From Scenedesmus sp. ARA3 (Eukaryota; Chlorophyta; Chlorophyceae; Sphaeropleales; Scenedesmaceae), in assembly GCA_004335835.1 (NCBI GenBank), contig RWJK01001094.1, positions 1 through 64,000 on the forward strand: 64,000 nucleotides of DNA, in the 5' to 3' direction. Every line of letters begins with the position of its first letter. The first letter of the stretch is position 1. The notes under the pieces were generated by a model. That model had not been told where the DNA came from, did no database searches, and worked only from the letters and a program-made list of their open reading frames with translations. This document shows, piece by piece, positions 26,299 through 63,917 of this stretch. The translations under genes and the position numbers were made by a program.

Positions 26299-26331
<33 letters not shown>

Positions 26332-27120: not shown

Positions 27121-27171
<51 letters not shown>

Positions 27172-27396: not shown

Positions 27397-27445
<49 letters not shown>

Positions 27446-27653: not shown

Positions 27654-27688
<35 letters not shown>

Positions 27689-27731
27689 GAGCCTTGCAGT
27701 CCCAGCTGCTGCTGCTGTGAGGCCTGCAGCC

Positions 27732-27763
<32 letters not shown>

Positions 27764-27854
27764 GAGCCATGCAGTCCCAGCTGCTGCTGCTGTGAGGCCT
27801 GCAGCCCCAGCTGCTGCTGCTGGGAGCCTTGCAGCCCCAGCAGCTGCTGCAGCA

Positions 27855-27886
<32 letters not shown>

Positions 27887-37165: not shown

Positions 37166-38206
37166 ATGATTTCACCGTTATTGAAGCCTGCAGCTTTGCT
37201 GCTGCTGCCGTTGCTGGCGTGGGTCGTTGCTGGCCAAGACGAGCTCGCAGCTGCGGCCAGTCCAGCCAATGAGGTATGCTTTATTTGTGTCTTGAGTTTC
37301 TTATCCGCGCCCTTTGATGGCAACAAATGCACAGCAGACACTTTTGCAGAGGCACCTCGTAGCCATTCGCCCAGCGCCTCTTGCACGATCGCAGCAGCAA
37401 CAGCCCAACACATCATCTTATCAGTAGAAGCTTCGACAGTTCAAAAACGGTCCTGCGTTGCGATTGGAGGTCGACAGCGGAGCTGGTGTCACCAGGCGTT
37501 GAACAGCACCTGCCGTGACTGCCACTGGTGTGCGCGTTGCATGGCAGCAGCAGCTCACTTGGACCGAACTTACTGCTTTAAGCTGGCCTGACAGCTCGCA
37601 GCGCCGAAGATACACGTTTCGAGGCAGCTCTGGCTGTCAGAGCAGTGTGCTGTGTTGCTGGAGCAGCAGTTACTGGTGACGCAGTGTCACTGCCAGCACT
37701 GCCGCATGCTCTTGCAGCAGCAGGGCTGCTGCTGGTGCTCAGGCACTGCACATTCATGCACTCCTTCCCCTTCACGGGGACACAAGGCTTGTGTGTCAAG
37801 GCTTGTGTGTCACTACAGCACCCCTTAGTCTTCCCTGCAAGATCTAAGAGACACACTCCTCCTCTTGCCCCAAGTTGTTGACTGGACGCACGCAATGCGC
37901 TGTCTGTTGACCAAGGAGTAACACCACGCTGCACTGTGCATGCAATAAACACTGTTTTCACGTATGCAGGGTCTCATGTAAGCACCAGTGCTTCCAGCAA
38001 CCATGTGCAGTACCATCGAGGATGGTGTGGAGGCTGCGCTTTGACACCTAGCTAGCACACCCTCATCAAGCTCCTGCTGCTGCTGCTGCTGCTGCCGCCG
38101 CCTGCATCAGGTTCCCACCAGTGCTGCCACCAGCCCAGCAGGCTACGTGCCTGGCTGGTATGGATCATGCGATATCAAGTCCAGCTAGCACACCCTTGAC
38201 AACCTC

Positions 38207-38274
<68 letters not shown>

Positions 38275-39911
38275 GCTGCTGCTGCAATAGGTTTCCACCA
38301 GTGCTGCCACCAGCCCTGCAGGCTACGTGCCTGGCTGGTATGGAGGAGGCATCTACCTGCAGGGCAAGCTCTGCTGCTCCCGCACCGTCTGCTCCCCAGG
38401 TGCGGCACGCCAGCTTGCAGGAAACCCTTTGATGCTTGCAGGAAACCATGCAGGGCTTGCAGGAAACCCTGTGCGCTTGCAGGAAATGTGTAGCTTGCCA
38501 AAACCGAGAGCTGGGGTCCTCATGCACCGCAGCCACAGCATTTGGGCGCAGTATGGACATCTTTTGAACCTGAGATCAATGTTGTGACTTGATTTCCTGC
38601 AGGCTGCTGACACTCTGCTGCCCGCCGCTGCATTCACGTCATTCTTGTTTCCTGCAGGCTGGCGCAGTTCCTGCAAGGGCTCTGTGACTGACTGCAGGAA
38701 GAAGAGCTGCAAGACAGTCAAGGCCCCCAACGGTGCCGTGTGTGACCTCAACCCGTGCATTCAAGGCTTGTGCTGGGATGGTGTCTGCATGGGCGGTGGA
38801 CCTGCCACCTGCCCCGCACACACTGAGCAGTGCATGCAGGTGAGCATGGCTCTGTGTATCACTGTACTTGTGATGTGTGGGGTTTGATGTTTTGTGTGAT
38901 ATACTGTGCCTGCACACGTGCAGCAGACGCGTGGGCATGGGGCGGTGGGCCTGCCCCGCACACACCGATGAGTGCATGCAGGTGAGCTGGCTGCACTGCT
39001 GTAGTATTATGTGAAGCTTGAAAGGTCCGTTGGAGGATTGGGTGCTGCATGGCTGTGCATTTGACGCGCCTGAGGTGTGCTCTGCGTACGGTTTATGGCT
39101 GCTGCTGCGTGTTTGGCAGCGCATGCAAGATGTGTGCTGGACTGACTACTGCCGTCCTTGGTCTCCGCTGCTGGTATTTTGTTGCTGCTGCTACTGCTGC
39201 TGCTGTTTTACCCTGCAGTACAAGTGCAACCCCAAGACCGGCCAGTGTAGGGAGACCTGCCCCAAGCCCAATGGCACTCCCTGCACAGGTGGCAAGTGCG
39301 AGTGTGGCAAGTGCATCCCAGATCCCCGCACCTGCCCTAAACCGCCCAATGTGTGCAGCATCTACCATTACAACAACGCTACAATGAAGTGCGAGCTGAT
39401 CAACGCCACCTGCCAGCAGCCCCCCAACCAGTGCAAGACGGTGAGTTGTGACAATCACATCCGAATGTTTTAGAGTTTTGCCCAGGATAAGATAGGGGCC
39501 CTGTGCCGTCTGGTGAGTTACGGCTCCAGCAGCAGCAGCAGCAGCAGTAGCGGCCTAGAAATGCAGTGGAATAGGCAACAGCTGCCCCAAACCGCCCAAT
39601 GCGTGCAGCATCTACCACTACAGCAACGCTACAATGAAGTGCGAGCTGATCAACGCCACCTGCCAGCAGCCCCCCAACCAGTGCAAGACGGTGAGTTTTG
39701 ACAATCACATCCGAAGGCTTTGGGGTTTTGCCCAGGATAAGATAGGGGTCATGTGCTGTAGAGTAACGGCTGCAGCTGCAGCAGCAGCAGCAGCTGCGGC
39801 GGCAGCGGCCTAGAAATGCTGTGGAATAGGCAACACCTGCCCAACATGCTGGCAACATGTGCTGGCAGCCAGGTGACAGCTGCTGTGTTACAATCCTCAG
39901 AAATGACTGCT

Positions 39912-39970
<59 letters not shown>

Positions 39971-40020
39971 NNNNNNNNNNNNNNNNNNNNNNNNNNNNNN
40001 NNNNNNNNNNNNNNNNNNNN

Positions 40021-40085
<65 letters not shown>

Positions 40086-40500
40086 CTGCTGCTGCTGCTG
40101 CTGCTGCTGCCGTGCTTGTTTCTGCCGTGCTTGTTTTCCGCAGCTGAGCTGCAACCCCAAGACCGGCCTGTGCACCATGCTCTCCAACAAGCCTGATGGC
40201 ACAAACTGTGAGCACCAGCACACTCTCTTGTATTTACATATACAAGTTGTGTAACACGTGTAATATAACAGTCTTATGTGCATGGATCCATGCACAGTGG
40301 GAGCAGCTGCACGCGGTGCACGCTACAACCCTGAAGCTGTGCTTGTGTCCTAACTTTGGCGTATCCTGAGCACTGTCAACTGAATCATGAAATGATGATG
40401 CAAACGGCACAAGGTAGACGCTAAGCTATTGGGACAGCACAGCAGCCTGGTGGCAGCAGCACTGACCTGTGCACGGTTGAATGCTTAGTTAAATAACACA

Positions 40501-40543
<43 letters not shown>

Positions 40544-43500
40544 GCCCAGGCACCGGCGGCACCTGCAAGGCAGGAAACTGCATCCCTCCCATCATCTGCG
40601 GCCCAAAGCCCTGCCCTCCCAACAACAACACCTGCAAAGCCAACAAGTGTGACCCAGCCACTGGCAAGTGCGACATCGTGGTGAACAAGTGAGTGACTCA
40701 GACAGCGACATAAAAAGTGTGACATTGCATGTCTCTGATCGCCGCCTGCAAGGCCAACAAGTGTGACCCAGCCACCGGCAAGTGTGACATTGTGGTGAAC
40801 AAGTGAGTGACACGAGCTCCTGACTTTTGGATAACGTAACAACACCTGCTTGGTAAACAAGTGTGACCCAGCCACCGGCAAGTGTGACATCGTGGTGAAC
40901 AAGTGAGCGACTCAGATGGTGACATAAAAAGTGTGACATTACACTGCACGTCTCTGATCGGTGCCTGCGAGTCCTACAAGTGTGACACAGCCTCCGGAAG
41001 GTGTGACGCCAATGTCAGTGTTTGAGTGAGCTCAGATGCATGCTGGGCCCTGCACCATTCAATGCATGCTGGGGCCCTGCATGGGGTGCATGCTGGGGCA
41101 ATGCATAATTCAATCCTGCTTGCATGCTGCAGCCAATTCACACCTGAGCCGCTAATGCAGCAACCTGCATTGCCTAGCTGTGCCAGCAGACTATGCAGAA
41201 ACTGACTGCATCTGCATGGCAGCAGCTCCTGATCTGGAACTGGCCGACCTGCACAAGCGGAACTCTGTGCAACTGACACGCAACCCGCTGCTGCTGCTGC
41301 TGCTGCTTCTGTGTGTGTGATGTGCAGGCCTAACGACACCCCATGTAAGTGGCAAGTTACACCTTGATCAATCTAATTGCATCAGCAGCTGCACAGCCCT
41401 CATGCTTCAGGCTAGCTTGACCGCAGCAGGCAGCACACACTGCGGTTCCATTGAATTTCAGCGTAATCCTGCAATAATGGGCTGTGTGTATACGCTGCCG
41501 GCTCCTCTCCATATCATCAGCAACAGTTGACCATCCCGCACATGCAAATGAATGCGTGAAGTTAGACGTCAACCTGCTTGTTTGTCATGTATTGTGTTAC
41601 ATGTCATGTTATTTAACATGTTGTTGTTGCTGCACCCTGCAGGCCCTGGAGGAGCCTGCCAGAATGGCATTTGCCTTCCTGCAGTCAAGTGCCCCACCAA
41701 GTGCCCTGATCACCCTGGTAAGTGGCAAAGGCAAAACTCAACCCCCTGGAGACCCGCCTCTGGAACATGGAAAAGCAGCAGCAGCAGCAGCAGCAGCAGC
41801 CGCCGCCGCCGCAGCAGCAGCAGCAGCTGCCGAAATGTGACGCAACTGGCCAGCCTCTTCCCGCAATCTGCCCCCTGACGCAGCAGCTCAACCCTCTGCT
41901 TTGTGCTGCCGCTGCTGCTGCTGCTGTTACAACAGATCTCTGCAAGAAGTACGAGTGCGACCTGAAGACCGGCAATTGCACCATTGTGGTGGACCGGTGA
42001 GTGACACAAATTGAAATATGTATTCCATGTAATTCATGTAATTCATGAAATCAATGTGATCCAAACCATGTGTTACATTGATTCTGACTCACCTTGTTGA
42101 GGACAAGTATATGACCCGCACGCTGGCAGTTGTACCATCGTGGTGCACCAGTGACTTTGATTAATAGTTCACCATGTGATTCAACATTGAATGTGCACGT
42201 AGTTTTAAGTTTCAAAAGGATGTGAGCAGCTACGCTGTGAGCCCAAGCCTAACAGCAGGTGCTGCTGCAGCGTTTGAACAGAAGCATTGTCGGGTGCAAC
42301 AGCGTATGCCTTGCTCTACCGCCATAGCTTTGCAATAGATCTGCTTGCTGTGCTTTTCAGGCGCGATGGCACGCGTGCCCTTCTACCACCTGCCAGCGTA
42401 TCATGGGGAAATAGCCCTTAGACATAGCCCACCTCTGCTATTCTCCTTAAAACATGATTGTTGTGTTATCTGTCTGCTGTTCAGGCCGAATGGAACTCGT
42501 GCCCATCTGGAACCTGCCAGGATGGCATATTAAATTTGATTGAAAAATGACCAAGTATGTTACTCCATCTCCTTCCAACTATGCATATGTGTCCTTGTCG
42601 TTGCTATTCAGGCCCAACGGAACTCCTTGCCCCTGTAAAACCTGCAAAATGACATAGGACAATGGCATACCAACCCATTACTCGGCCTCTGACTATGTTT
42701 TTATCTGTTCTTCTGTGCTTTTCAGGCCCAATGGAACACCTTGCCCCTCTGGAACCTGCAAAATGACATAGGCAAATGGCATAAACACCCATTACTCCGC
42801 CTCTGACCACTGTTATTATCTGTTCTTCTGTGCTTTTCAGGCCCAATGGAACACCTTGCCCCTCAGGAACCTGCCAGGATGGCATCTGCTCACCAAACCC
42901 GATCTGCCCCCCGAGGCCAAGCCCCTGCCAGGTGAGGCACTGATTTGTGACATGATTCATAACATGTCATATGGCATGATGTTTGTGCTGCTGGCACCAG
43001 CAGAGCACACCCCCGAAGGTCCGTGGTCAACAAGCCAGCCCAACACATCTCTTTTGTATTTCTTTCCGACGATGTCATGAAATGTTCCCTGGCAGGCCCC
43101 AAATGCACGCTGATCACCCTGTCTGACAAATCTCTCTGTTTTGTGGTGTTATAACATGTTACATTTTGTCGTGCTGCTGCAGCTCTACGAGCTACCCCCT
43201 GGCGCCACCAACTGCACGCTGATCACCCTGCCCAACAACACTGCCTGCGACGACGGCCGCGCCTGCACCACAGACGACAAGTGAGTCAACTTCTGAGTTT
43301 CTCCTATCTGTTTTGTTGGGGTTTGTTTCGCAAAGGGGAGTAAATTCTGCTTTGTTTGGGGGTAAGTTCTGCGGTCTTTGCTTCGTGCGTTTGCCCCAAC
43401 CACCTGCTTTTCCGCATTGCTGCAGGTGTGTCTCTGGTGTCTGCACGGGCACCCAAAAGACCTGCCCCGTGCGCCGTCAAGGCCGCAACCCCCAATGCAT

Positions 43501-44116
43501 CTTGTCAGTTTGTGCGGAGCCAAATGCAGTGTGCACTGAAGTGGAGGCCCCAGATGGCACCAGCTGCAATGATGGCCAGCCGTGCACAAACAAGGACCAG
43601 TGTGTGAACGGCGAGTGCAAGGGGACCCCGCTGGTGTGCTCTAAGAAGCGGCAGGCAGGCACCTGCAAAGAGCTCCGCTGCAACCCGCTGACAGGTGAGG
43701 CGGCTGCTGCTGCTGCTGCCCCTGTGCGTGCGTTTCGCTTTTGTGTTTTGAGTCTATTTTGAATTCCTGTTTTTGTCAAACAAGGACCAGTGTGTGAATG
43801 GAAAGGGCAAGGGGACGCCGCTGGTGTGTGCAAAGAAGCGCCAGGGCGGTAGCTGCACGGAGCGGCGCTGCAACCCGCTGACAGGTGAGACAGCCGCTGC
43901 TGCTGCTGCCATTACCTGGCATACTGTGATCTGCCTTGCAATCATCCCCGGCTTGGGTATGGTTATCAAGAAGTCTTAGAGGTTTTATATATGTCTATGT
44001 TATATGTAAGTAAAAGATATGTTTGTATGGTTGGATGTGTGTTGGGAGGGGCTGCAGGCGGGGCTCAAGATGCTCAGCTGCTCTGCGCCAGCATGCATGT
44101 GATTCATAGCTTACGC

Positions 44117-44152
<36 letters not shown>

Positions 44153-44809
44153 TGCAGGCCAGTGTGCTGAGCTGCCCCTGGCTGACAACACTCCCTGCGA
44201 TGATGGCAAGTGGTGAGTGCCGACGCATGGGATGTGCAAGGCTTGCCTGCTGTACTTTATGTAACATGCAAATGGCTGCTTGGTTACTTTGGTCTTGTAG
44301 CAGTTTCAGCTCCAGCCAAGTTTGTAACATAGATGCTGGTGCTGCTGTGGCAGCAGATGCTGCTGATGCTGCAGTGCTAACCTTCCGTCAAGACCGACAC
44401 ACTGATGCTGCGGCTGCTGCTGCTGTCGCGATACAGGTGCACCACCGACGACGTCTGCGTATCCGGCGTCTGCACCGGCGAGCCCCGCACCTGCCCCGAC
44501 TCAACAAACCAGTGCCAGCTTTTGCTGCTGCTGCTGCTACTGCTGCTGCTGCTGCCGTCTCGCAGGTGCACCACCGACGACGTCTGCGTATCCGGTGTTT
44601 GCACCGGCGAGCCCCGCACCTGCCCCGACTCAACAAACCAGTGCCACCTCCTAATGGTGATGCTGCTGCTGCTGTTGCCACCGTTCTGCAGGTGCACCAC
44701 CGACGACGTCTGCGTCTCCGGCGTTTGCACCGGCGAACCCCGCACCTGCCCCGACTCAACCAACCAGTGCCAGCTGGCTGCATGCATTGAGGCCACACAA
44801 ACTAACAGA

Positions 44810-44851
<42 letters not shown>

Positions 44852-44976
44852 TCTTGCAGGTGCACCACCGACAACGTATGTGTGTCAGGCGTCTGCACCG
44901 GCGAGCCCCGCACCTGCCCCGACTCAACAAACCAGTGCCAGCTGGCAGCATGCATTGAAGGCACACAGACTAAAGG

Positions 44977-45029
<53 letters not shown>

Positions 45030-47247
45030 TGCTGTCTTGCAGGTGCACCACTGACGACGTCTGCGTGTCAGGCGTCTGCACCGGCGAGCCCCGCACCTGC
45101 CCCGACTCAACCAACCAGTGCCAGCTGGCAGCATGCATTGAGGGCACACAATCTTGCGGCTTTGTACCCCGCCCTGATGGGGCTGTGTGCGAAACAGCCG
45201 GCACAACTCGCTGCGGCGTAGACACGTGCAGCAGCGGGCAGTGCGTTGCAGCCAACCGCACAGATTGCTCGGCGCTGGATGACGTGTGCAACGTGGGCAC
45301 ATGTAACGAGGGTACTGGGGCGTGTCAGAAGATCAAGAAGGCTGACAACACGCCCTGTGATGATGGAGAGTTCTGTACCACAGGGTCAGTGTGTACTGCC
45401 GGCCTGTGTGGTGGTGGCAAGCCGAAAGAGTGCCCCATGCCCCGCATCATGTGCAAGGAGGCCATCTGCTCCCCGGTGAGTCAGTGTCCAGGGTTTAGCA
45501 GCTGTCAGGGTTCAGAGAACTGACATTTGGGTTGGGGTTCAACAAATATGCGGTGTGTACTGCTGGGCTGGGTGGTGGCGGCAAGCCAAAAGAGTGCCCC
45601 ATGCCGCGCATCATGTGCAAAGAAGCCATCTGCTCCCCGGTGAGTGGTTTAAAGCTGTTTGGGGTTGAAGTCTCAGGGTCTTGCGGTTTTGTTTGGGATC
45701 GTGCTTTGCAATGTGGTCAGCGGGGAGTGTGAAAAGGTCAAGAAGGCAGACAACACGCCCTGCAATGATGGAGAGCTCTGTACTGAGGGGTCAGTTTGTA
45801 CTGCTGGACTGTGTGGTGGCAGCAAGCCGAAAGAGTGCCCCATGCCGCGCATCATGTGCAAAGAAGCAATCTGCTCCCCGGTGAGTGGTTGGCAGTGGAT
45901 GTTAGGGTTCAAGAATTGGGGTTTTAGGTTGGTTTTTGTGAGTCATGCTGTTGGGGTGTACTGCTGGGCTGTGTGGTGGCGGCAAGCCAAGGGAGTGCCC
46001 CATGCGCCGCAGCATGTGCAAAGAGGCCATCTGCTCCCCGGTGAGTGGCTGGCAGGGTTTAGAGTGGTTGTTAGGGTTCATGGAATTGGGGTTTTGGGTT
46101 GGGTTTTATGAGGCATGCAGCTGGGGTGCAGCGCAGGCATCTGTGCTTGCGGCAAGCCGAAAGAGTGCCCCATGCCCCGCATCATGTGCAAAGAAGCAAT
46201 CTGCTCTCCGGTGCGTGCTGTATGTCTGATAGAATTCAATTGTCTTGTTTTAGGGGGTGCGGTCCTCCATGCGACAGGTGTTGAGGCTCTTAAAGTAGAG
46301 TGCACGTGTTTGAATGTGGTACCTATGATGTGCTTGTGATGGCCAGTTTGGCACGGAGGGCTGGGTGTTTACTGCTGGCGTCTGTGCTGGCGGCAAGCCT
46401 GACAGACTGCTGCTAACCCTGTGTTTTGTGTTCTTTGCTGGTGCTTGCGTCTTCAGGCGCTGCGCCAGTGCCTGGTGCTTGACAAGGACTGCAGTGCCGT
46501 GGCAGATCAGTGCAGTGATGCCTGCTGATCCTCTTCCCATGATTGCGCCTGCTGATTCCCTTTTCTTGTGTGTTGTTCGCTGTGCATTCCTGCAGGCGCT
46601 GCGCTAGTGTCTGGTGCTGGACAAGGACTGCAGCGACAATCCTGACCAGAGCTTTGTGATGTATGCTGTCCCTTTTGATAATGAATTTGTTTGCTCTTGT
46701 TGTCCATCTTGCAGGCGCTGCGCCAGTGTCTGGTGCTGGACAAGGACTGCAGCGGCGTGGCGGACCATGGACAGTGCAACTTTGTCTGCTGGACCATTTT
46801 TCTAAAACATTCGTTGCTTGCTTGGTCTGTTTGCAGGCGCTGCGGCAGTGCCTGGTGCTGGACAAAGACTGCAGCGGCGTGGCCGACCAGTGCAACAGTG
46901 GCGTGTGCAGCGCAATCACAGGCCAGTGCCAGAAGTCCCCAAGCAACGAAGGTGAGCCGTTGGCAAAGTGATGAATTGGTTGCCGTTGATTGAGGGAGCT
47001 GATTCGAACCGCGTGACACTAGAAGCAGAAGTGTGGCAGGCGCATGAGTGCAGCACTAGCAGCCGTCGGCAGGCCAGAAGTCGCCAAGCAACAAAACGAG
47101 CTGTGCACTGATGGACATCAGCTGTCAGTTGCTGCATTACTGGCGAACCGATGTCACAGCATGCGGTGAATGCTGTGAAGGGGTTCCTGATGCACGCGGT
47201 CACAAACTCATGCGGTCAGGGACGCCAGGAGCAGTGTATCAATGGTT

Positions 47248-47284
<37 letters not shown>

Positions 47285-47347
47285 GGGTGGCAGATGCGAC
47301 GACGGCCTGAAGTGCACCATCGACAACACCTGCTCCACTAACCCAGC

Positions 47348-47383
<36 letters not shown>

Positions 47384-48392
47384 CAGGTGGCACGTGCGAC
47401 GACGGCCTCAAGTGCACCGTCAATGACACCTGTGCTGGCGGCACCTGTAGTGGCAAGCCGCTCATCTGCCGGGCCCCAGACAATCAGTGCAAAATGGCTG
47501 TGTGTGATCCGTCCACTGGCGGCTGCATTTCTGTAAACAAGCCTAACGGCACGATCTGCATCAGCGGCAGCGCCGCCGGCCAATGCACCACAGACACCTG
47601 CCAGGGCGGCGTGTGTGTGCGGGGACCGGAGAAGAACTGCACAGCGTTTGATGATGACTGCAATGAAGGATGGTGCAACCCGAGTAGTGGCAGGTGGGTG
47701 TGGTTCTTGGTGTCTGTGGTTTTGCTGATGTGTTTGGGGGTTTTCCAGATGTAAAGAGCTTTGTGGGTGCGGATTCACTTTGGTCTGCAACAGCGGCAGT
47801 GCTGCTGGCCAGTGCACCACAGACACCTGCCAGGGCGGCGTGTGTGTGCGGGGCCCGGAGAAGAACTGCTCTTTTCCCGCTGTGATTCAGGGGCTTTTAG
47901 GAACCCCAGGGATGTTCTATGTGTGTGTGGGGGCCGGAGAAGAACTGCACAGCGTTTGATGATGACTGCAATGAGGGCTGGTGCAACCCAAGCAGCGGCA
48001 GGTGAGTAGGGTTTATTTCAGGTATCTATTCTGGGTTTCAGGAAGTCACACACACAAGCCATAAATCACACACACAAAGCTTTAAACACAGACATATGCA
48101 AGGGCAGTGTGTGTGTGAGGTGGCCCTTGATGGCTAACTGCACGGCCTTTGACAACAATTGCAAACACCCTTGCTGTCACTAGCTGCCACTGCTGCTGCT
48201 CCTGTTTCTGTTGTTGTGAGAAGCGACCCGATTCAAACTGCAGCCCCTGCTGCACTGGCCTGTCATGTACACCCTGGCCGTCACTTGCTGCTGTTGCTGC
48301 TGCTGATGCTGCTGCTGTAGCTGTGAGAAGCGCCCCGCAAACAACCTCGGCCCCTGCAGCACCGGCCTGTCATGTAACAATCTGACTGTCAC

Positions 48393-48438
<46 letters not shown>

Positions 48439-48512
48439 AGCTGTGAGAAGCGCCCCGCAAACAACCTCGGCCCCTGCAGCACCGGCCTGTCATGTAACAA
48501 TCTGACTGTCAC

Positions 48513-48558
<46 letters not shown>

Positions 48559-49108
48559 AGCTGTGAGAAGCGCCCCGCAAACAACCTCGGCCCCTGCAGC
48601 ACCGGCCTGTACTGCAAGATCAACGAGCAGTGCAACAACGGAGTATGTGGAGGTGGCAGGTGAGAAAACCATTGTATTTCACTTGTTAAAGTATACTATT
48701 TTTTATGTTTATAATAACATAATTTACAAACATAGCATATGCGTGTAACGCATGGTCAACGAGCATCACAAGTGTATGCGGCGGCGGCAGGTGAGACAGC
48801 CACAGACAGCAATCGATGCAGTTGAATTGGGGTTGTGCAGTGCTTGTGAGGTTGCAAAGCATGGTAAGGTGCGTTTGTTCTTGTGAACACAACAGCCAGG
48901 TTGGCTGTCCTCCAAATCAACCCTGAACACCAGAGGATGCCAAACAATTTGATGTGCTGCCAGTGTCCCTATGTTCCTGGGGACAGAAAAATAATAATAA
49001 TAATAGAAGTATCAACCAATCCACATCCTGTCGAGTCAAGGCAGTGCACTGAGACCCCCAACGCACCCTTGACACAAACATTGTACAGGCACAACCCAAA
49101 TCATTATC

Positions 49109-49148
<40 letters not shown>

Positions 49149-53998: not shown

Positions 53999-54090
53999 GG
54001 TTTTAGAGTTTACAACTGAACCCTACATCTGAAACAGGCTCTGCAACGCAGCCGGCCCTTGAGCTTGCATCTGCGGCTGTCGTGCAGATG

Positions 54091-54262
54091 CTGTGATGGC
54101 TGTGCAATGGCTGCTGTGATGGCTGTGATGGCTGTGCAATGGCTGCTGTGATGGCTGTGCAATGGCTGCTGTGATGGCTGTGATGGCTGTGCAATGCTGT
54201 GATGGCTGTGCAATGCTGTGATGGCTGTGCAATGCTGTGATGGCTGTGATGGCTGTGCAATG
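54091..54262. repeat. GCTGTGATGGCTGTGCAATG tandem repeats
   Basis: Two mixed sub-units, GCTGTGATG and GCTGTGCAATG, alternate about sixteen times in all. Confidence 0.93.
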
Positions 54263-55604
54263 GCAGGAGCAGCTGTGCTGACACGTCTTGTGAATTGGCT
54301 TGTCTGGATGCTTGGGATGTGTGAATAGCCTGTGGATCGTTTGGGTGTGTTGGTGCGCGGCGAAGGTCTGGTCAAACACGCGGCCAGGCTGCCACCAACC
54401 GCTGGTCAACGCCTGGTCAAAGTCTGGTCAAACGCTGACGACAGCATGGTCGAACACATGGCCATGCCACAATGCATGAATAACTTGCAAGGGGACAGGT
54501 TGCTATGGAGGTCTTGCAATATGGGAGTTTATGTCGGCATGTTGGCATGGAGCTTGGCTTGCATATAACAAACAACAGATGCTTTTCAGGGTCATACTAT
54601 TATGGTTATATCCATATGCCGAGGGTGCGTGTCAGGACATAACCATGCAGGGGGTACCAGCGGTGTTGCGGGTTGGGATGTCTGGTTGCCACGCTAGGCT
54701 GCACCACTTGCTTGCAATGAAAGAAACAGATGCTGCGGATCTTTGCTTGGAGTTGTGTGTCCCTGGCAGGGTGCGGCAGGGTGCTGTGCTGCTGCTGCTG
54801 CTGCTGCTGCTGGTGCCTTGGCAGCGTACGGGAGCTGTGCTGCTGCACCTTTGGCTGTGCATCAGCTGTGCCTCTATAAACATGTGGCTGTGCGATACTG
54901 CAGCAGCCACAGGCGCGTGGGAGATGGCCACCCGACTATGTGTGTGGTGTTGCAGAACAGTGCTGCACAAGGCCCGTGCAGTGCAGGGTTCTGGGGTGAA
55001 AAAGGTTGGCAGAGATGCGTGTTTGTTGCTGTTGCTTTGCTATTGGCAGGACTGCTTGCAACACGCTTCTGCTGCTTGCAACATAACACGGCGTGCATAT
55101 GTGAGGACTTGTTTGCGGCGAGATGGGGGCGGTTTGTTGGCGGTCACTCATAATATGTTGATATGTTGACAGTTGCTTAGGTTATCTCGGCAGTTAACTC
55201 AGGGTATAATCTGGAAATGGTGGTGCTGTGGGGTGTCACGGAGACAGGGCCTTGGGTTTTGAGTTTTTGTGGTTAAACACCTGAGCTCATTTCCCTGTTG
55301 CAGCTAGCTTCAAAACCCTGGCTTTGGGGCTTATGGTGTGCTGGGGCCTTCAGCAACAGCAGCAAACCTGGCCTCAGAGGTTCACTGTTCATGCTGTGCG
55401 TTTAGCGCTTGTCGCTGATTCAGCATGGGTTCAAGGTGTGAAACTGGGGTGTGACGCCGTAACAACTGGTCAGCGCTGGTCAACGCTGGTCAAACCTGGC
55501 TTTGCTTGTTGTGGAGGGCGGTTCCTGGGGCTCAGGTTTATTTGCGTAGGCAATAATATACGAGATACATTTGGTAGTGCCAGAATGTGGTTTGATGGCT
55601 CTGA

Positions 55605-55715
55605 TGCTGCTACAGCCAGGCCTGCTGAGGGGCATGCTGCTGCAGCCAGGCCTGCAGAAAGGCATGCTGCTACAGCCAGGCCTGCAGAGGGACACGCTGC
55701 TGCAGCCACGCAGCA
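55605..55715. repeat. 30-bp tandem repeat (CTGCAGCCAGGCCTGCAGAG)
   Basis: Three and a half copies of a 30-base unit, CTGCTRCAGCCAGGCCTGCA plus GAGGGGCATG. Confidence 0.92.
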
Positions 55716-56852
55716 GAGGGACTTGCTGTCTCGGCAATGCGAGCAGCAGCATGACAGCGGCAGTACGCATAATACGCATTTGTTGCGGGCCATCTGGCTG
55801 TTTGAGGTGAGTTGTGGGTATGTAGCCAGGCCTGGATCGGGATGCCTGGGCAATGGCAGTGGGAGTAGCTGCATGTGAGGTTTTCAATCACCTTTCTGGA
55901 CGGTGCAATGCGCGCCCTGGGTTGCTGTTGACGTACAGCAGCACGTGGCATCAACATATGATGGGATGGTTTGAGCTGTGGCGTGCTGCACTGCTGCTGG
56001 CACGCACTGCTGTCAAAACCTCAGGGGTCCTTGCGGGCACGTCGGTGCATGCATGATGATGCGATGTCTGTTTCCTGCTGCAGTGCTCACTGCTTGGTTT
56101 TGCTGCAGTGCGGTCAAACCCCAGGGGCATGTACATGATCACCCAGATGTCTGCTGCACACTGCTGCGTCTCCTGCTGCAATGGTGCTCACTGCTGTGCC
56201 TTGCTGTACTGTATGGCTTTGCGTGATGAGGCTTCTGCCACATAACATGCCTCCATGCAAAAACTTCCCTGCATGTGTCACGGTTGACTGTGTGGGTGGG
56301 TGCCATCATGCCACAGGTGTGTTTGTGTGTGTGCAAATACTAAACAGCAACGCTGTTCTTTGTGCAACGCATGATGTTGTTGCCGTTTGGTTCGTTCAGT
56401 CCTTGGCAGCGCCGCTGCAGCCTTGATTAGCAAAGAACGCATGCTCCTGGACTGCTGTTTGGCTGTGGAATCAAAGGCAGCAATGGTACGCGCTGCTTGT
56501 CCATACATGATGCCCGCAACCATGTGTGTCAGATGCAAACTTGAGCACATCATTACATGCTGTTATTTTGGGTCATGCCTGCACTGCTGCGGCCTTAAGA
56601 GGCAGTTCAGGCTGCTTTGCATGCAGCGGATGCCTCGACTACACAGGTCAGAATTGGCAGCTTGCATCACACACGTGGCAGCTGCAGCTTCTGCAAAATG
56701 CATCCAGAACATGACTCTGAAGCTGGCGCTGTTCTTGCCAGACTGCTGCTTCTCTGGGCAGTAGATGCCTCTGCACTTGTTGATTAGTTTTGGTTGGTTG
56801 CTGATTGAATTCATGCCAAATCAGGGCTGCCTGTGCAGGGCGTGCAATGCTC

Positions 56853-57135
56853 CTGTGGCTGTTACACAGCAGCCGCAGTAGGCCTGCCAGGCCGCAACGT
56901 GGCCTGTTACACAGCAGCCGCAATATGTTTGAGGCCTGTTACGCAGCGGCTGCCGCATGTCTGTGGCTGTTACACAGCAGCCGCAGTAGGCCTGCCAGGC
57001 CGCAATGTGGCCTGTTACACAGCAGCCGCAATATGTTTGAGGCCTGTTACGCAGCAGCCACCACATGTGTGGGGGGTCTGTGATGCGGCAGCAGCAGCTG
57101 CTGCAGTATGCGTGCGGCCTGTTACACAGCAGCAG
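56853..57135. repeat. 108-bp tandem repeat with GTTACACAGCAGCCGCA core
   Basis: A 108-base unit starting TGGCTGTTACACAGCAGCCG is present twice (56857 and 56965) with few changes, followed by a partial third. Inside the unit the core GTTACACAGCAGCCGCAATA is itself repeated. Confidence 0.93.
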
Positions 57136-57184
57136 CCGCAATATGCCAATGGGTACCAAACAGAACTGTTGTGTGTGCTGTCTG

Positions 57185-57625
57185 CCTCACGGCACACTGC
57201 AGCAGCACATGTTGGGTGGTGCACAGCTGCAGCAGTGCGCTGTACGGTGCACTGCAGCATCACATGGTGAGGAAGAGGCACCGGCCGTGCTTAATACACA
57301 CTGCAGCAGCACATGATGTGTGGTGCTGGGCTGCGGCCGTGCGCTGTACGGCGCACTGCAGCACCTCTTGGTTGTGCGCGAGGCACTGGCCGTGCCTTAT
57401 ACACACTGCAGCAGGGCTTGATGTGTGGTGTTGGGCTGTATGGCTGTGTGCTGTACGGTGCACTGCAGCACCTCTTGCTTCTGCGCGAGGCACTCAATGA
57501 CATTGCAGCAATTGCCTGCTCAGAGTTTGCAGTTTGGCTTAACGTCACATGACACTCTGCCACAGGGCATGATGTGTGATGCTCAGCTGCAGCAGCGTGC
57601 TTTACAGCGCACTGCAGCAGCAGCA
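57185..57625. repeat. Degenerate repeats of about 110 bp (GTACGGYGCACTGCAGCA core)
   Basis: Four to five units share CTGTACGGTGCACTGCAGCA, RCACACTGCAGCAGSRC, GATGTGTGGTG and GCGCGAGGCACTGGCCGTGC. Confidence 0.88.
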
Positions 57626-59188
57626 CTGGATGGCGTCTGGTTGCTTTATTGAATTGATGCAGCACCTGTTTTGGGGTTTGGAGTTTGTTTAGGAATTGCA
57701 GCTGCACCTGACAGCTCAGGGCGTCGGCAACTTGCTCGTTTCAATATGCATGCCTGTGGGTCGCTGTGAACCTTCTAATGGATGCCTTTGATGCGGGAGC
57801 CCATGCGCTCTGCCTCTTTGGGTACGTTGTGTTACGTTGTGTCACATACTCCACTCAGCCACGGGGTAGATTGCGCGTGAGCACAGTCGTGTGGCTGCTG
57901 GCTCTCCTTCTGTACATGTGTGCAGGTGTGTGGGTTCAATGCTGCTGTACAGCCGCAGTACATGGTACGTACAGGCACAGTCAAAGGCGGACTGATCAAT
58001 TGTCTACGGGTGACTTGAATGATGGTGGTTTGTTTTGATTCTGGCTGTGCAGCAGCAGCAGTACATGGCATGCAAAGGCACAGGCGGACTGCTTTCCACA
58101 TTGATGATGGTGACTTGAATGATGGTGGTTTGTTTCAATTCTGACTGTGCAGCTGCTGCAGCCTACCGCATTCGATCTGACTCGTCTACAGGCATGCGGC
58201 AGCAGTTGGGTTCTGAAAGAGCAGCTGTTGCAGCCTGCCGCATTGGATGTGGCTCATGTGCAGGCGTGCGGCAGCGTCGCTGCTGTTGCGCTGGACTTAT
58301 CTTTTCAACGCATGCACTTTACTGGCATGTGGCGCGGCTTCTGCGCTGGCTTGCTTTTCTTTCAACGCATGCACATTGGTAACTCTCTGTCACTGACAAT
58401 GTTGGGGGAACACTCTGCACCACTCCGTGGGGGCATGTGTGTCAGGCGCTAGGCTGCTGCAGAGTACCCCACAAATGGGCCGTTAATTGCCAGCTACACT
58501 GCCGCAGCACAGCCTGTGTGCAAGGCTTGTAGGCACAGCTCAGCACAGGCTCACTTCAAAATCTAGTGCTGGAAGCTACAGATCTTACGGTGGCTGTTGA
58601 TATGGGGCGGTCGTGTCAGCCGGAGGTGTGATTACCCTCCTGCTGTGATTACCCTCCTTCTGTCCAATTAGGGTTTACTGCAGTCAAATCGGGAGCGGGG
58701 GATCATATAGCAACGTTCGTTTCACTCCATCGTCCCACTTGAATACATATTATATCAATTCCTATGTTCTGGTATGCTGTTGACTGCTCTTGAAAGACAT
58801 TGCTGTTTGTCCGCGCGCCTTAGCTTTGCAGTTGCAAGCTGCGATATTGTACGCCTACTTATACCAATCAAGCAGCACTATACGAACTTGCAGGACCGGA
58901 TCAGTGCAGGCTAGGAAGAGAACTTTCCTGCATACTGCTCGAGAGCTCTGTGCAACGCATTTTGAGAAATTGATTAATCGCAGCGTTTACTTTATCAAAC
59001 CAAGCAGATCATTAAACCACGCTGCGCGCGTGCCAGCCTGCCTGTTGGGCTGTGATGCACACAGCAGCAGCAGGCAGCTGCAGTAGCAGTTGCCCCACCA
59101 CAGCAGCAGCAGCAGCAGTAGCACCATCATCCCTAGCTTTCCTTTAGCGCAGCCGGTTCTATTAACTTCAACGAAGCCATTCTCTGCA

Positions 59189-59770
59189 ATGTCGCTGATC
59201 TACTCGCTGTATGTCATCAACAAGTCGGGCGGCCTCATCTACAGCAGGGTAAGACGCAGGCAGGACAGGACTCCTTTGCAGCGCAGTTGTTTGCAGGCTT
59301 CGCAGTGCAGCATGTGCGTGTGTTCGCGATAGCAGGTGGTTGATGTAGATTGCAGCAGCAGCAAGTCGGGCGTCCTCATCTACAGCAGGGTGAGGCGCAG
59401 GCAGCGGGAGCGGACTGCGCGGAGTGCGCAGCTTCTTGCAGGCTTACAGGTGCAACAGTGCGTTGTGTTGTTTGTGTGTCAGCAGTGGCCACCTAATGCT
59501 GATACGCCAGGTGACCTCATCTATAGCAGGGAAAGGAGCGAGCTGCGCTTTGCTTGCCACAGCAGCAGCAGCAGCAGCCGCCGCCGCCGTATGCCGTAGC
59601 GTTGGGCGGGCTCATTACCAGCAGGGTCAACAGCAGGCAGCGTGGGTAAGTTGCACTTTGCTTGCCTACAGCAGCAGCAGCAGCAAGTCGGGCGGCCTCA
59701 TCTACAGCAGGGTGAGATGCAGGCAGGAAACAAGCGAGCCGCGCTTTTATTGCCCACAACAGCAGCAGCA

Positions 59771-59803
<33 letters not shown>

Positions 59804-60230
59804 CTGAATCTGACCCCTGACGTGGACCCAGTTGCTGTTGCTACCTGCTCGCAGGACTTTGAGCCCTCCGCCAAGCTGGACCTGAACGACACGCTGCGCC
59901 TGGCCAGCATATGGTGAGCGGAGGGGGAGAATAGCAGCAGTAGAGGTCAACAGCGGCAGCGGCAGCAGCTGCGGCAGCACATGGTGCCTGTCATGCTGTC
60001 TTCTGTGGGCATCATTGGACAAGGAAGACACGCTGCGCCTGGCTAGCATCTGGTGAGCGGGGGCAAATCACTTGTGCTATATACATAGCAGCAGCAGCGG
60101 CAGCAGCAGCAGCAGCAGCAACACATGCTGCACTGTCATGCTGTGATTTTGTGGGCATCATTGGACAGTAGTTACACGCTGTGCCTGGCCAGCATCTGGT
60201 GAGCAGGAGATTACTACTTGTGCTATATAC

Positions 60231-60266
<36 letters not shown>

Positions 60267-60392
60267 CATGCTGCACTGGCCTGCTGAGGTTCGTGGACAT
60301 CGTGTGACCTGAGTGACACGCTGCGCCTGGCCAGCATATGGTGAGCGGAGGGAGAGGATAGCAGCGTGCATATCAGCAGCAGTGGCGGCAGC

Positions 60393-60425
<33 letters not shown>

Positions 60426-60497
60426 GCGCCTGGCCAGCATGGCACGCTGCGCCTGGGTGGCATCTGGTGAGCGAGATGTGTGAAATTTAATGAACTT

Positions 60498-60529
<32 letters not shown>

Positions 60530-61784
60530 CTACCACGATGCAACTAGTGGGCATTGTTTGGCCCAATGCTGCGCCCGGCCAGCATTTGGTGAGGTGTCAG
60601 TTGCAGCCACTCAGCAATGCACATCAGCTGCAGCAGCGACGGCGGCAGCGGCGGAGGCAGCAGCAGCAGTAGCACGTGCTGCACTGTCCTGCTGTGATTC
60701 GTGGACATCGTGTGACCTGAATGACACGCTGCGCCTGGTGAGCGGAGGGGGAGGATAGCAGCGTGCATATCAGCAGCAGTGGCGGCAGCGCAGCAGCAGC
60801 AGCCGCGCCTGGCCAGCCTTACACGCTGCGCCTGGCTGGCATTTGGTGAGCGGAGGGGGAGGATAGCAGCGTGCATATCAGCAGCAGTGGCGGCAGCGCA
60901 GCAGCAGCAGCCGCGCCTGGCCAGCATTTGGTGAGCGGAATGTGTCAAGGGAATAGCGCCAGCACCAGCAGCAGCAGCAGTAGCAGCTGCTGCCTCACTA
61001 CCACGCTGCAACTCAACACGGCTTTGCTGTGCTGCCTGACTCAGCTTTTCTTGCTGCTTGCCAGTACTCGCTGCATGTGATTGCCTCGCACCTGTAGCCT
61101 GCCACCCTAATCGCCCCGCGTAGCAGTCAACTAGCATAGCTGACTGAGCGCTTCTGTCTTGCACTGCTGCTGCTGGCTGCAGGCACTGCCTGCACGCCAT
61201 TGCCTCTCAGCTGTCACCCGCTCCCGGCTGTGGCTGTGGCTGGGCTGTCTGAGCGCTGCTGTCCTGAGTTGCTGCTGCTGCTGCTGCTAATGGTGCTGCT
61301 GCTGCTGGCTGCAGGCACTCGCTGCACGCCATTGCCTCTCAGCTGTCGCCTGCCCCCGGCTGTGGCGGGATCGAGCTGCTGCAGGCGGAGAGCTTCGACC
61401 TGCACTGCCTGCAGGTCAGAGATCTGAATCAAACAGCAGCTGCGACTCAAACGTAACATGTGTTATAAACGATTTGATAATGTATGCCAGCATCGAGCTG
61501 CTGCAGGCTGAGAGCTTCGACGTGCACTGCCTGCAGGTGAGACACCCCTGCACTGGCAGCAACCGCAGCTGTCGCCTCATGTTCAACTGTTGTTATGACA
61601 GCTACCAGCAATGCCACATTCTTGACAGCCGCGTTGTTGATGTTTCGGCGCGGGTCTCAGTCAAACAAGCTGCAGCTGCAGCAGCTGGGCATGCCTTGCT
61701 GACCTGCCTGTTCTGTGGCTTAGGTGTGTGCATGACACGGCAATGAATGGATGAAATGCATGCAACCGAACATCAATAACACTG

Positions 61785-61815
<31 letters not shown>

Positions 61816-61920
61816 AGGCTCCCACAGGCACCAAGTTCCTGCTGATGGTGGAGCCGCAGTGCCCCCAGGTCACAGCGCTACTGGGCAGGTGGGCAGCAGC
61901 AGCAGCAAGGGCAGTGCTGA

Positions 61921-61952
<32 letters not shown>

Positions 61953-63076
61953 CCAGCAGCAGGTGCAGCAGCACTGTGTACGTAACCATGACTCACAGAT
62001 GACAGAGCTGCTGGGCAGTTGGGCGGCAGCAGCAGCAGCAGCAGCAGCGCCCCCAAGTCACCGCACTACTGGGCAGGTGGGCAGCAGCAGCAGTGCTGGC
62101 AGCAGCAGAAACGGCAGCAGTAGCGCCATTGCGTGCAATCATGCTACCGCCTGCCTCTGTTATGGCGTTGCGCTTGACACCGTCACTGCTGCCACTGTTG
62201 CTGTTGCTGCTGCTACCACCGTCGCTGCTGTTTCCCTGTTGCTGCTGCTGCTGCCGCTGCTGCTGCTGCAGGATCTACGAGCTGTACAGCGACTTTGTCA
62301 TGAAGAACCCCTTCTACGAGGTGGAGCAGGTGCGCAGCAGGGATTTAGGTGAAGAAAGTTCTGCTACAACCCTAGGCATTGAGCGGTGGCTCTTTGTCAA
62401 AAACCCCTTCTACGAGGTGGAGCAGGTGCGCAGCAGGGTCTAGACCAAACCACGATCAAACCAAGATCCAACCCTAAACCCTAGGCTACGGCAATGTGAC
62501 ACTGTGCAGTGACTTTGTTATGAAGAATACCTTCTGTGAGGTGGAGCAGGTGCGCAGCAGGGTTTGGGGTAAGGAAGGTTTCCTTGCAACCCTAGACCCT
62601 AGACATTTATCGATTCCGTAAAAGGCAACCCCTTATATGAGGTGGAGCAGGTGCGCAGCAGGGTTTGGGGCATGCAAGGTTCCAGCAAATCCCTAGACCC
62701 TAGACATTTATCGATTTCGTAAAAGGCAACCCCTTATATGAGGTGGAGCAGGTGCGCAGCAGGCTGTAGACCCAACTATGATCTTGCATGAACCATAGCC
62801 TAGGGCAATGTCACACCGTGCCATGACCTTGTGCTGAAGACCCATGTTATGAGGTGGAGCAGGTGCGCAGCAGGGTTGAGACCAAACAAACCAAGATGCA
62901 ACAAAACCCTAGCCTAGGGGGAAGTAACACTGCGCAGTGACCTTGTGCTAAAAACCCCTCTACAAGGTGAGCAGGTGTGCAGCAGGGTTTGATTGTTGGG
63001 GTTTGGGTCCAAGAAGCAGCGACCAAACCCGTGAGACCTTGAGCAGTGACTGTGTCATGAAGCAACACCTCAACAC

Positions 63077-63107
<31 letters not shown>

Positions 63108-63917
63108 TGTTGCTGTTGCCAGGTCATCAAGTGTGAGCTGTTTGACGAGGCAGTCGACTTGGCAGTCAAGCGCTACCCCCTCATGCTGCTGGCGGCACCA
63201 CAGCAGGTATGTCCCCGATGGTGAAGAGTTTGGGCATTAGTCGCAATGGTTTAGGGTTGAGGTTAAGGGTTCCCTTTGTGGTGAAGCGCTACCCCTCATG
63301 CTGCTGGCGGCACCACAGCAGGTGCGTGCATGATGGTGCAGGGTTTGGGCAACTTGACAGTGGATAATCGTAGAGTTATAAGTTTGCTGTGCAGTCAAGC
63401 ACCAAATTGCTACCCCCTCATGCTGCTAACGGCACCACAGCAGGTGTGTGCGTGATAATGCAGGGGTTCGGCTTTTCGACAGTGATTTACGGTTGAGGTT
63501 TTGGTCCCCTGTGTAGTCAAGCGCCAAGCGCTACCCCCTCATGCTGCTGGCGGCACCACAGCAGGTGCGTGCGTGATGGCGAAGGGGTTGATCGTGTATT
63601 GCTGGTTGGAAGGGTTGAGGTTTAGGTTCAGTGCTACCCCTTCATGCTGCCAACGGCACCACAGCAGGTGTGTGCGTGATGGTTTAGGGTTTAGATGTGT
63701 TCTGCTGGTTTGAATGGTTGAGGTTTAGGTGCTCTGTGCGGCGAAGCGCTACCCTCATGCTGCTGGCGGCACCACAGCAAGTGCGAAGCGGTGTGCGATG
63801 AAATCAGCTGCAGTAACGGCACTGATCAAGCAGCAGCAGCAGTGCTGGTTAACTCACCTCTCACAGCCCCAGCCAACACAGGCTTTTTGGAACCTCGGGG
63901 TACTGATTGTCACATAG
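59189..63917 (+). CDS. TRAPPC4: TRAPP complex subunit 4 (TRAPPC4/Trs23, sybindin-like)
   Basis: TRAPPC4 is a small longin-fold core subunit of the TRAPP vesicle-tethering complexes on ER-to-Golgi and Golgi membranes, part of the Rab (Ypt1) exchange-factor core. Exons: 59189-59248, 59855-59913, 61315-61414, 61818-61888, 62272-62329 and 63123-63206. A weak last exon, 63882-63917, would end [11 protein letters not shown] and a stop. All phases agree, giving about 155 residues; plant Trs23 proteins are around 140. The product begins [20 protein letters not shown] and runs through [67 protein letters not shown] and [14 protein letters not shown], all colinear with TRAPPC4. Metazoan proteins carry an extra internal stretch after the first segment that is absent here. 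The tail after LAVKRY is unlike the family, so the 3' end is uncertain. Introns are full of truncated exon copies. Confidence 0.88.
59340..59720 (+). repeat. Downstream copies of TRAPPC4 exon 1 3' end plus donor
   Basis: AAGTCGGGCGTCCTCATCTA, ending CAGCAGG/GTGAGG near 59390, and AAGTCGGGCGGCCTCATCTA, ending CAGCAGG/GTGAGA near 59711, copy the exon 1 end (true end 59248, GTAAGA). Two more decayed copies end near 59530 and 59624. Confidence 0.92.
59914..60940 (+). repeat. Eight downstream copies of TRAPPC4 exon 2 3' end plus donor
   Basis: Short copies of ACGCTGCGCCTGGCCAGCAT followed by NTG/GTGAG end at 60052, 60198, 60340, 60466, 60598, 60737, 60845 and 60930 (true end 59913). Most are followed by a CAG/CGG tract and GTGGACATCRTTG or ATAGCAGCGTGCATATCAGC. 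The copies are only 20-35 bases of exon each and have no acceptor. Confidence 0.95.
61054..61314 (+). repeat. Two upstream copies of TRAPPC4 exon 3 5' end plus acceptor
   Basis: GCTTGCCAG then TACTCGCTGCATGTGATTGC at about 61063, and GGCTGCAG then GCACTGCCTGCACGCCATTG at about 61183, precede the true exon at 61315 (GCACTCGCTGCACGCCATTG). The second copy extends into CGGCTGTGGC before diverging. Confidence 0.93.
61470..61540 (+). repeat. Downstream copy of TRAPPC4 exon 3 3' end plus donor
   Basis: ATCGAGCTGCTGCAGGCTGA, then GAGCTTCGACGTGCACTGCC and TGCAG/GTGAGA, repeats the exon 3 end. The first donor (after 61414) is GTCAGA, weaker than the GTGAGA of the copy. Using the later donor would retain intron sequence. 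Confidence 0.93.
61889..62085 (+). repeat. Downstream copies of TRAPPC4 exon 4 3' end plus donor
   Basis: GCGCCCCCAAGTCACCGCAC, then TACTGGGCAG/GTGGGC, near 62078 copies the exon 4 end (true end 61888). A poorer copy with GAGCTGCTGGGCAGTTGGGC lies near 62020. Confidence 0.9.
62330..62980 (+). repeat. Six downstream copies of TRAPPC4 exon 5 3' end plus donor
   Basis: Copies of CCCCTTCTACGAGGTGGAGCAG/GTGCGCAGCAGGGT-type sequence end at 62425, 62549, 62650, 62751, 62862 and 62974 (true end 62329). The exon part shortens and decays downstream, while the donor flank AGCAG/GTGCGCAGCAGG stays almost fixed. Spacings are about 95-125 bases. Confidence 0.95.
63207..63790 (+). repeat. Five downstream copies of TRAPPC4 exon 6 3' end plus donor
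   Basis: CTACCCCCTCATGCTGCTGG, then CGGCACCACAGCAG/GTGYGTG, recurs with ends at 63321, 63443, 63564, 63667 and 63780 (true end 63206). Each is followed by ATGGTGNAGGGTTTGGG-like intron sequence, so the unit includes the intron start. Spacing is 103-122 bases. Confidence 0.95.

Follow-up and report, generated by a model that had tools for sequence, protein, structure and literature searches.

The stretch of DNA analysed here, hereafter the window, comprises positions 1 to 64,000 of contig C776 (RWJK01001094.1) in the assembly of Scenedesmus sp. ARA3 (87.3 Mb, 1567 contigs), and its forward strand carries a gene for a Cys-rich protein as well as the TRAPPC4 gene. We report that introns of both genes contain additional copies of the ends of the adjoining exons, mostly together with their splice sites, and that such copies are widespread in genes sampled elsewhere in the assembly. 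Self-BLAST of the window with microsatellites masked gave 123 pairs of direct repeats, almost all of them separated by 60-1000 bp and with 68-100% identity, and pairs of this kind are present at each of the six TRAPPC4 introns.

TRAPPC4 was spliced by hand from the window and encodes a protein of 144 amino acids (aa) that is 99% identical to Tetradesmus obliquus OEZ86_007260, which puts the genome in or very close to that species; the protein is assigned to the Pfam family Sybindin. The exons, based on sequence reading and homology of the spliced protein, lie on the forward strand at 59189..59248 (exon 1), 59855..59913 (exon 2), 61315..61414 (exon 3), 61818..61888 (exon 4), 62272..62329 (exon 5) and 63123..63206 (exon 6), while the gene model places exon 7 at 64117-64146 of contig C776, just beyond the window. 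Arrays of copies of an exon 3' end plus donor, delimited by self-BLAST and in the same orientation, lie downstream of exon 1 (59215..59728, with high-scoring segment pairs at 59215, 59352 and 59674), exon 2 (59877..60939), exon 5 (62282..62991) and exon 6 (63165..63785), with one such copy each for exon 3 (61370..61542) and exon 4 (61870..62093). Upstream of exon 3 an array of copies of its 5' end plus acceptor (61052..61366) was found by self-BLAST and missed by microsatellite-masked probes. Exon-end probes gave 20 alignments at 6 of the 12 TRAPPC4 junctions, and self-BLAST gave 7 junction arrays. At 60045 and 60191 the exon 2 array reads CATCTG between a preceding AG and a following GTGAGC, and a T. 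obliquus isoform in protein database annotation (P0002) has two extra residues that these six nucleotides would encode; this suggests that copied splice sites may be used. The T. obliquus annotation also includes a second, shorter TRAPPC4-like model (P0021, OEZ86_007263) ending in VCPRW, which is how the bases right after the exon 6 donor in the window would read.

The Cys-rich gene, also on the forward strand, has 11 copies at the three junctions examined. According to self-BLAST and sequence reading, four copies of the 5' end of the exon starting at ~45042 lie upstream of it (44434..45154), four copies of an exon 3' end plus donor lie downstream of ~45478 (45317..46217), and three copies of an exon 5' end plus acceptor lie upstream of ~46837 (46407..46894). 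Additional acceptor-side copies (42475..42885) and a donor-side copy (43587..43910) come from self-BLAST, were read by eye and are unmodelled. The first-pass annotation had described junction-linked exon-end copies in these two genes, and the counts for both bear this out. One open frame of 380 aa (window 44381-45520), with poly-leucine spacers from CTG runs, covers the first acceptor array (44434-45154), and because this array sits in one open frame its copies may be partly translated. Codon differences in the three arrays, one of them possibly translated, comprise 56 synonymous and 10 nonsynonymous changes and 1 stop. A Pfam search of two Cys-rich stretches gave no match, and an Rfam scan of the window gave none at gathering scores.

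For the wider sample, 15 of the final 16 genes were chosen by protein family, with repeats ignored in the choice. A genome search with Pfam Cpn60_TCP1 gave 59 matches on 11 contigs, all of which were taken; Pfam Proteasome gave 26 matches on 14 contigs, from which six regions were taken and four kept (C1531, with one exon, and C1020, with one match, were dropped), and eight further proteasome contigs lie outside the sample. Twenty genome regions were extracted for modelling, and three more, from two further families, were taken later for a separate set. The final set comprises 16 genes with 104 introns and 208 junctions. Exon models were generated with a spliced dynamic program using family matches and expected protein length as anchors, which were needed because free Viterbi gene finding mistook intronic copies for exons. 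The models are based on protein homology, not RNA, and span the first to the last family match of each gene; the program allowed GT or GC with AG, and all introns in the final models are GT...AG, none GC. Five models (C1184, C1492, C1032, C1016 and C1260) were corrected by hand using knowledge of chaperonin sequences, and three of these (C1492, C1032 and C1016) were checked against solved chains. The CCT5, CCT3 and CCT1 models show gaps of only 1-4 residues relative to the solved chains; one CCT5 exon was altered after a 2-residue gap, the alignment predating the alteration, and a 4-residue gap persists in CCT1. Copies scoring <34 and microsatellite-masked ends escape detection, so the counts miss some copies; moreover, copies within one array are not independent of each other, and the 163 exon-end alignments contain overlapping pieces (145 after merging identical starts).

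Junction-linked copies are real, strong and widespread in the sampled genes, well beyond the two genes of the window. Exon-end copies occur in at least one place in 58 of the 104 introns (53 of 98 without TRAPPC4), and 60-nt exon-only probes found them at 38/104 donors and 41/104 acceptors, i.e. 79/208 junctions, compared with 1 of 1248 introns of other genes. With 70-nt junction-spanning probes a straddling copy was detected in the exon's own intron at 22/104 donors and 23/104 acceptors, and at a rate of ≤0.001 in introns of other genes. The introns of C837, C1219, C955 and C1274 contain no copies. For three further genes, copies were found in three of seven introns, with none in the four introns of a mitochondrial carrier; one of these genes, on C1470, has two candidate exon 1 matches, and with the upstream one assumed the three genes show eight copies, each of which extends to the junction and has its GT or AG, while with the other match a donor copy is unseen. 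Median intron length is 701 bp with strict straddling copies and 345 bp without. The repeated exon part measures 26-77 nt (10th to 90th percentile), with a median of 42% of the exon per copy. Almost all alignments (152 of the 163; 130 places after merging) reach to within 6 nt of the junction, and exon fragments lacking a splice site are rare (11 end >6 nt from it).

The copies lie overwhelmingly on one side. The first-pass annotation had stated a strict rule, in which copies of an exon's 3' end always lie downstream and copies of its 5' end always upstream of that exon. In agreement with this, the junction-spanning probes found nothing in the wrong-side intron (0/88 donor and 0/88 acceptor, 0/176 together), and of the 97 junction-straddling self-BLAST arms 94 fall on the side that the rule predicts. 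The rule is not absolute: two of the three off-side arms come from one array holding the whole of C1184 exon 2 and one from a C1032 exon that was later remodelled, and the exon-only probes gave wrong-side matches in 2/88 and 8/88 cases, all ten in exons ≤106 nt, where the probe extends into the other half of the exon.

Self-similar segments form 79 arrays, whose shortest periods range from 88 to 249 bp (95-150 bp in 61 of them), and 74 of the arrays straddle one junction with part of the exon; two others hold a whole exon, one spans the intron between two exon edges and two are intron-only. Random placement of the arrays gave on average 22 one-junction (maximum 34) and 32 intron-only cases, and when whole-exon and exon-only cases were barred the averages were 33 (maximum 44) and 46; placement of single units gave 21 (maximum 32) and 58, or 37 (maximum 49) and 42 with introns halved (500 trials each). 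Among the detected arrays the excess at junctions is thus strong, as the first-pass annotation had anticipated, although the rate per window, to which we return below, is no higher there than in intron interiors. When exons were masked and intron-intron repeats with ≥40 bp of non-exon sequence were counted, 15 of 16 at ≥85% identity, and 35 of 38 at ≥80%, proved to be connected with a junction or with a copy of an exon; several of these repeats share one array. Junction enrichment may partly be due to longer persistence of exon-derived sequence rather than to targeted duplication. Copies also end alike at their far side: at 26 of the 32 exon ends having two or more copies, a far boundary is common to at least two of them within 5 nt, and it agrees in 43 of 79 copy pairs compared with 13.7 expected (maximum 30 in 1000 random draws). 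The shared far boundaries therefore indicate tandem units, and it is likely that the copies were born by junction-straddling tandem duplication.

The splice sites in the copies are well preserved. GT is kept in 80 of 87 3'-end copies downstream of the exon and AG in 55 of 65 5'-end copies upstream of it. Median donor scores are 6.2 bits for GT-keeping copies, 6.8 for true sites and -7.9 for other intronic GT, and the corresponding acceptor scores are 5.1 for AG-keeping copies, 6.4 for true sites and -4.6 for other AG. Use of the copies as cassette exons was considered and rejected, because the far boundary shows no clear second splice site (an AG close to the start of 38/84 donor copies where 32 are expected, a GT close to the end of 23/61 acceptor copies where 25 are expected) and because the offsets are not in frame (20, 29 and 31 of 80 copies at zero, one and two modulo 3). 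Geometry and protein homology show that the gene structure which retains the conserved protein uses the exon-proximal site, and the cause of this we infer: choice of this site at both exon ends is expected under exon definition, one of the two splicing modes described in PMC3488318.

Similarity between copies and true junctions is largely confined to the exon side. In donor copies, ungapped positional identity to the true junction is 0.88-0.94 over 25 exon bases and 0.95 and 0.94 at the GT, and it is 0.43-0.56 at +6 to +12 of the intron and near background by about +25; acceptor copies behave alike, with a slower fall into the intron. Mean identity is 0.90 for exon parts, 0.67 for 40-nt intron flanks and 0.59 for unrelated flanks, and at a null threshold of 5% the flanks of 49 of 150 copies were detectably similar. 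Neutral simulations predict detectable flanks in 87-95% of copies at 0.19 substitutions per site and in 98-100% at 0.10-0.15, the observed mismatch at 4-fold sites being 0.17. Even among the 47 copies with exon identity ≥0.95, flanks are similar in 20 and not in 27. Of 152 copies, 80 are alignable through the junction, and 12 of 19 copies of ≥93% identity run ≤6 nt into the intron. The most clear-cut example is C1492 exon 7, in which 68 exon nt plus GTGAG recur identically 181 bp downstream with both flanks unlike, and in which the 113-bp spacer, the only spacer searched, matches only itself in the whole 87-Mb genome. Other arrays have kept similar spacers, e.g. on the donor side of C1032 exon 10 and on the acceptor side of C530. 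The copies had first been taken for whole segments of 100-250 bases spanning the junction; the tandem periods agree with such units, but most copies now hold the exon end plus a few intron bases. Nor does similarity decay with distance from the true exon, as had also been proposed: for 37 exon ends with at least two copies of ≥0.8 identity, the nearest copy is the more similar in 18, the less similar in 17 and equal in 2. Selection close to the splice site as the sole cause was rejected, given that 57 ungapped copies of ≥48 bp keep an identity of 0.90-0.93 from 8 to 59 nt into the exon (one bin at 0.85; the first 8 nt at 0.95-0.97).

The differences between copies and exons carry a coding-like signature. 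The rate of mismatch to the true exon is 0.051 at the first codon position, 0.043 at the second and 0.150 at the third, and codons with a single mismatch are synonymous in 303 and nonsynonymous in 164 cases, compared with 163 and 395 expected from the same spectrum, which gives a nonsynonymous to synonymous (N/S) ratio of 0.22 (excluding 60 codons with multiple mismatches). For a neutral copy of a constrained exon a ratio of about 0.5 is expected. When counted by exon end, position 3 exceeds the others 3.01-fold between copy and exon (95% confidence interval (CI) 2.36-3.82) and 2.25-fold between copies (1.71-2.94); changes private to a single copy number 75, 66 and 139 at positions 1, 2 and 3, and those private to the true exon 2, 2 and 24. 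CpG or base context was rejected as the source of this bias, since context rates taken from positions 1 and 2 predict 71 copy-private changes at position 3 where 139 were observed. There are 6 stops in the copies where 15 are expected, and 28 of 30 gaps are not multiples of three. With coding-like mismatches yet frameshifting gaps, the copies therefore look as if kept close to a selected exon and not like intact coding exons. Exchange between array members was examined in arrays of four or more sequences, those of the Cys-rich gene being among the arrays searched. In 8 such arrays a single tree cannot accommodate 14 of the 24 informative site pairs, whereas exchange-free tree simulations gave 18% on average and only 4 of 300 were as high as observed. 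A first, smaller test gave 6 of 12 incompatible pairs in 6 arrays, with 12 of 200 simulations as high.

Some introns with copies contain plant-type telomere-like motifs. In a count of 10-mers of TTTAGGG/CCCTAAA these amount to 200 bp in introns with copies (39.3 kb), with none in introns without copies (15.3 kb), in exons or in window 1-36000, and exact motifs are confined to three genes, namely those on C1492 (L040) and C1032 (L045) and TRAPPC4 (introns 5 and 6). Of 17 such places, 10 of the 11 lying nearest to donor copies read TTTAGGG, and all 6 lying nearest to acceptor copies read CCCTAAA. As a general feature telomere-like filler was rejected, because with degenerate matching one of 19 permuted units equals it on the donor side; the same applies to its orientation, both orientations occurring on the acceptor side (5 and 4 of 58 introns, degenerate matching). 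The motifs could stem from break-repair filler DNA, or represent G-runs and branch-site-like CTAAAC. Elsewhere in the window, direct repeats with a 201-bp period and 93-98% identity lie at 17564-18369, with a gap of 50 N within them; a long array of repeats of 71-80% identity and offsets such as 183 and 218 bp lies at 7917-9027; and 1593-4829 shows inverted similarity to 24897-29082, ~20-27 kb apart, perhaps reflecting two related genes in opposite orientation.

To account for these observations we propose that introns grow by short tandem duplications straddling an exon-intron junction, after which the copies go on exchanging sequence with the selected exon as their anchor, a reading to which we assign a probability of about one half. 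Slippage or unequal exchange would duplicate a unit of ~90-250 bp comprising an exon end, its splice site and some intron. The structure preserving the protein would use the exon-proximal site, as in exon definition, and because that site is used the extra copy would become intron, while units inside an exon, or with a whole exon, would mostly be lost. Intron parts would subsequently drift, and exon end and splice consensus would stay alike through exchange, by gene conversion or repeated slippage, between the constrained exon and its copies. With the constrained true exon driving the exchange, the kept part would therefore end where the constraint on the true junction ends, and the outcome would be longer introns with decoy splice sites of nearly full strength.

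Several results weigh against this proposal. The exchange test rests on 24 site pairs. A simple conversion simulation gave N/S values for exon-copy pairs of 0.57-0.75 of neutral and never reached the observed 0.22, and therefore conversion alone was rejected as the explanation of this value; to arrive at it, conversion would have to be supplemented by some constraint of a protein-like kind or by exchange among divergent alleles. Windows with a copy are about as frequent inside introns (161/579) as at junctions (22/104 and 23/104), and rarer inside exons (6/69), but the intron-internal rate is not independent, because intron windows include the arrays' own copies. Finally, the linkage of 15 of 16 masked repeats to junctions or exon copies hints that births, too, are biased to junctions, an effect that duplication followed by exchange does not predict. 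A broader idea, tentative and clearly less probable than duplication with anchored exchange, is that some process able to tell exon from intron copies exon ends into the adjacent introns, or actively keeps them there, as far as the splice site. If true, a standing store of near-perfect exon ends with strong splice sites would be present in over half of the introns sampled from conserved genes of this alga. We know of no such class of intron growth or sequence maintenance, and there is a serious chance that the process maintaining the persisting exon ends is new.

Among the alternatives, two stand closest, both of them improbable. The copies might be under selection themselves, used in splicing of alternative or regulatory isoforms, with coding sequence and splice site kept for that use. 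The low N/S ratio, the distribution of copy-private changes over codon positions, the near-full-strength sites where GT or AG is retained and the agreement between the extra residues of P0002 and the two framed CATCTG motifs would all be accounted for in this way, but the frameshifting gaps, the remaining stops, the out-of-frame offsets and the far boundaries without a clear second splice site speak against it, as does the 68-nt copy that is identical at third positions too. With similarly low probability, a process might insert exon ends, cut at the splice site, into the adjoining intron, for example as break-repair filler DNA or from an RNA/cDNA template. Such copying fits the sharp drop in similarity a few bases beyond the junction, the short reach into the intron of most copies of ≥93% identity, the single-copy C1492 spacer and the telomere-like motifs in some introns with copies; the far boundaries common to copies in one intron and the matching spacers of some arrays point instead to tandem units, and fragments lacking a splice site would not be expected to be so rare.

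Two further explanations are less probable still. The model of the first-pass annotation, simple tandem duplication across the junction followed by neutral decay of the copies, agrees with the side rule, the shared far boundaries, the range of periods and the similar spacers surviving in some arrays, and its first half (tandem origin, one-sidedness, junction enrichment) stands. Its second half is contradicted for most copies by the loss of flank similarity, also among copies of ≥95% exon identity, by the third-position bias between copies and by the lack of decay with distance. If the species is very diverse, duplication and then normal recombination between alleles, in which the true junction is replaced by that of other haplotypes, would yield coding-like differences, sharp loss of similarity at the junction and intact splice sites together, and two T. 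obliquus-like TRAPPC4 sequences do differ at 2 of 153 residues, but it requires many independent events per gene. A mobile introner-like element or an assembly artefact is very improbable: the window has three N gaps and the first-pass annotation had itself urged caution, but it had also set introners aside, correctly in view of the one spacer searched, which is single-copy in 87 Mb, the single match of exon-end probes among other-gene introns and the exon sequence that the copies carry, while a separate T. obliquus annotation has an isoform matching 6 nt of a copy, and the copies differ from one another, as it had also noted, in coding-like patterns, so that simple repeat collapse does not account for them.

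Known systems provide partial parallels. In potato RdRp (PMC4974935) and in ATP2A1 (Hellsten et al. 2011, cited there) a short intragenic tandem duplication is masked by splicing, and here likewise a short tandem duplication within a gene is hidden by splicing and the protein kept; in contrast to those cases, existing introns are lengthened, copies lie on the exon's own side, each usually carries one splice site, and 58 of 104 introns are involved. Introners are dispersed elements, some with target site duplications of 3-9 bp (PMC9860276), and they resemble the present case in padding genes genome-wide with sequence that is spliced out, but the sequence described here derives from the exon and stays local, and the only spacer searched has no second match in the genome. 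Internal duplication of genes or exons (Gao and Lynch 2009, as cited in PMC4974935) similarly involves tandem duplication of exon sequence within a gene. Here, unlike in exon duplication, a whole exon is present in only 2 of 79 arrays and the partial copies, usually with one splice site, are removed as intron. Tandem repeats evolving in concert by gene conversion also remain similar over time; here, unlike in the ordinary form of that process, a selected exon end is a member of the array and the retained similarity ceases close to the splice site. Our literature search covered tandem duplication at junctions, intron growth, partial exon duplication, introners and the Tetradesmus genome, and in the open-licence literature, as judged by titles and the starts of abstracts, no described case of junction-linked exon-end copies was found. 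Taken together, it looks as if the junction-straddling copies belong with known intron evolution driven by tandem duplication and appear as an undescribed way for introns to grow.

The cause of intron lengthening in genomes without obvious transposons is, to our knowledge, poorly known, and a traceable source of intron sequence has now been found in more than half of the sampled introns. Mean intron length is reported as 462 bp in T. obliquus compared with 230-302 bp in three other Sphaeropleales and 270 bp in Chlamydomonas (PMC5966456). Moreover, the arrays represent natural splicing experiments, in which adjacent sites are nearly equal and only the exon-proximal one gives the conserved protein, and as such they provide a test of splice-site choice. 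Finally, the fact that intronic copies are preserved in a coding-like manner, and only to about the splice site, calls for a testable mechanism.

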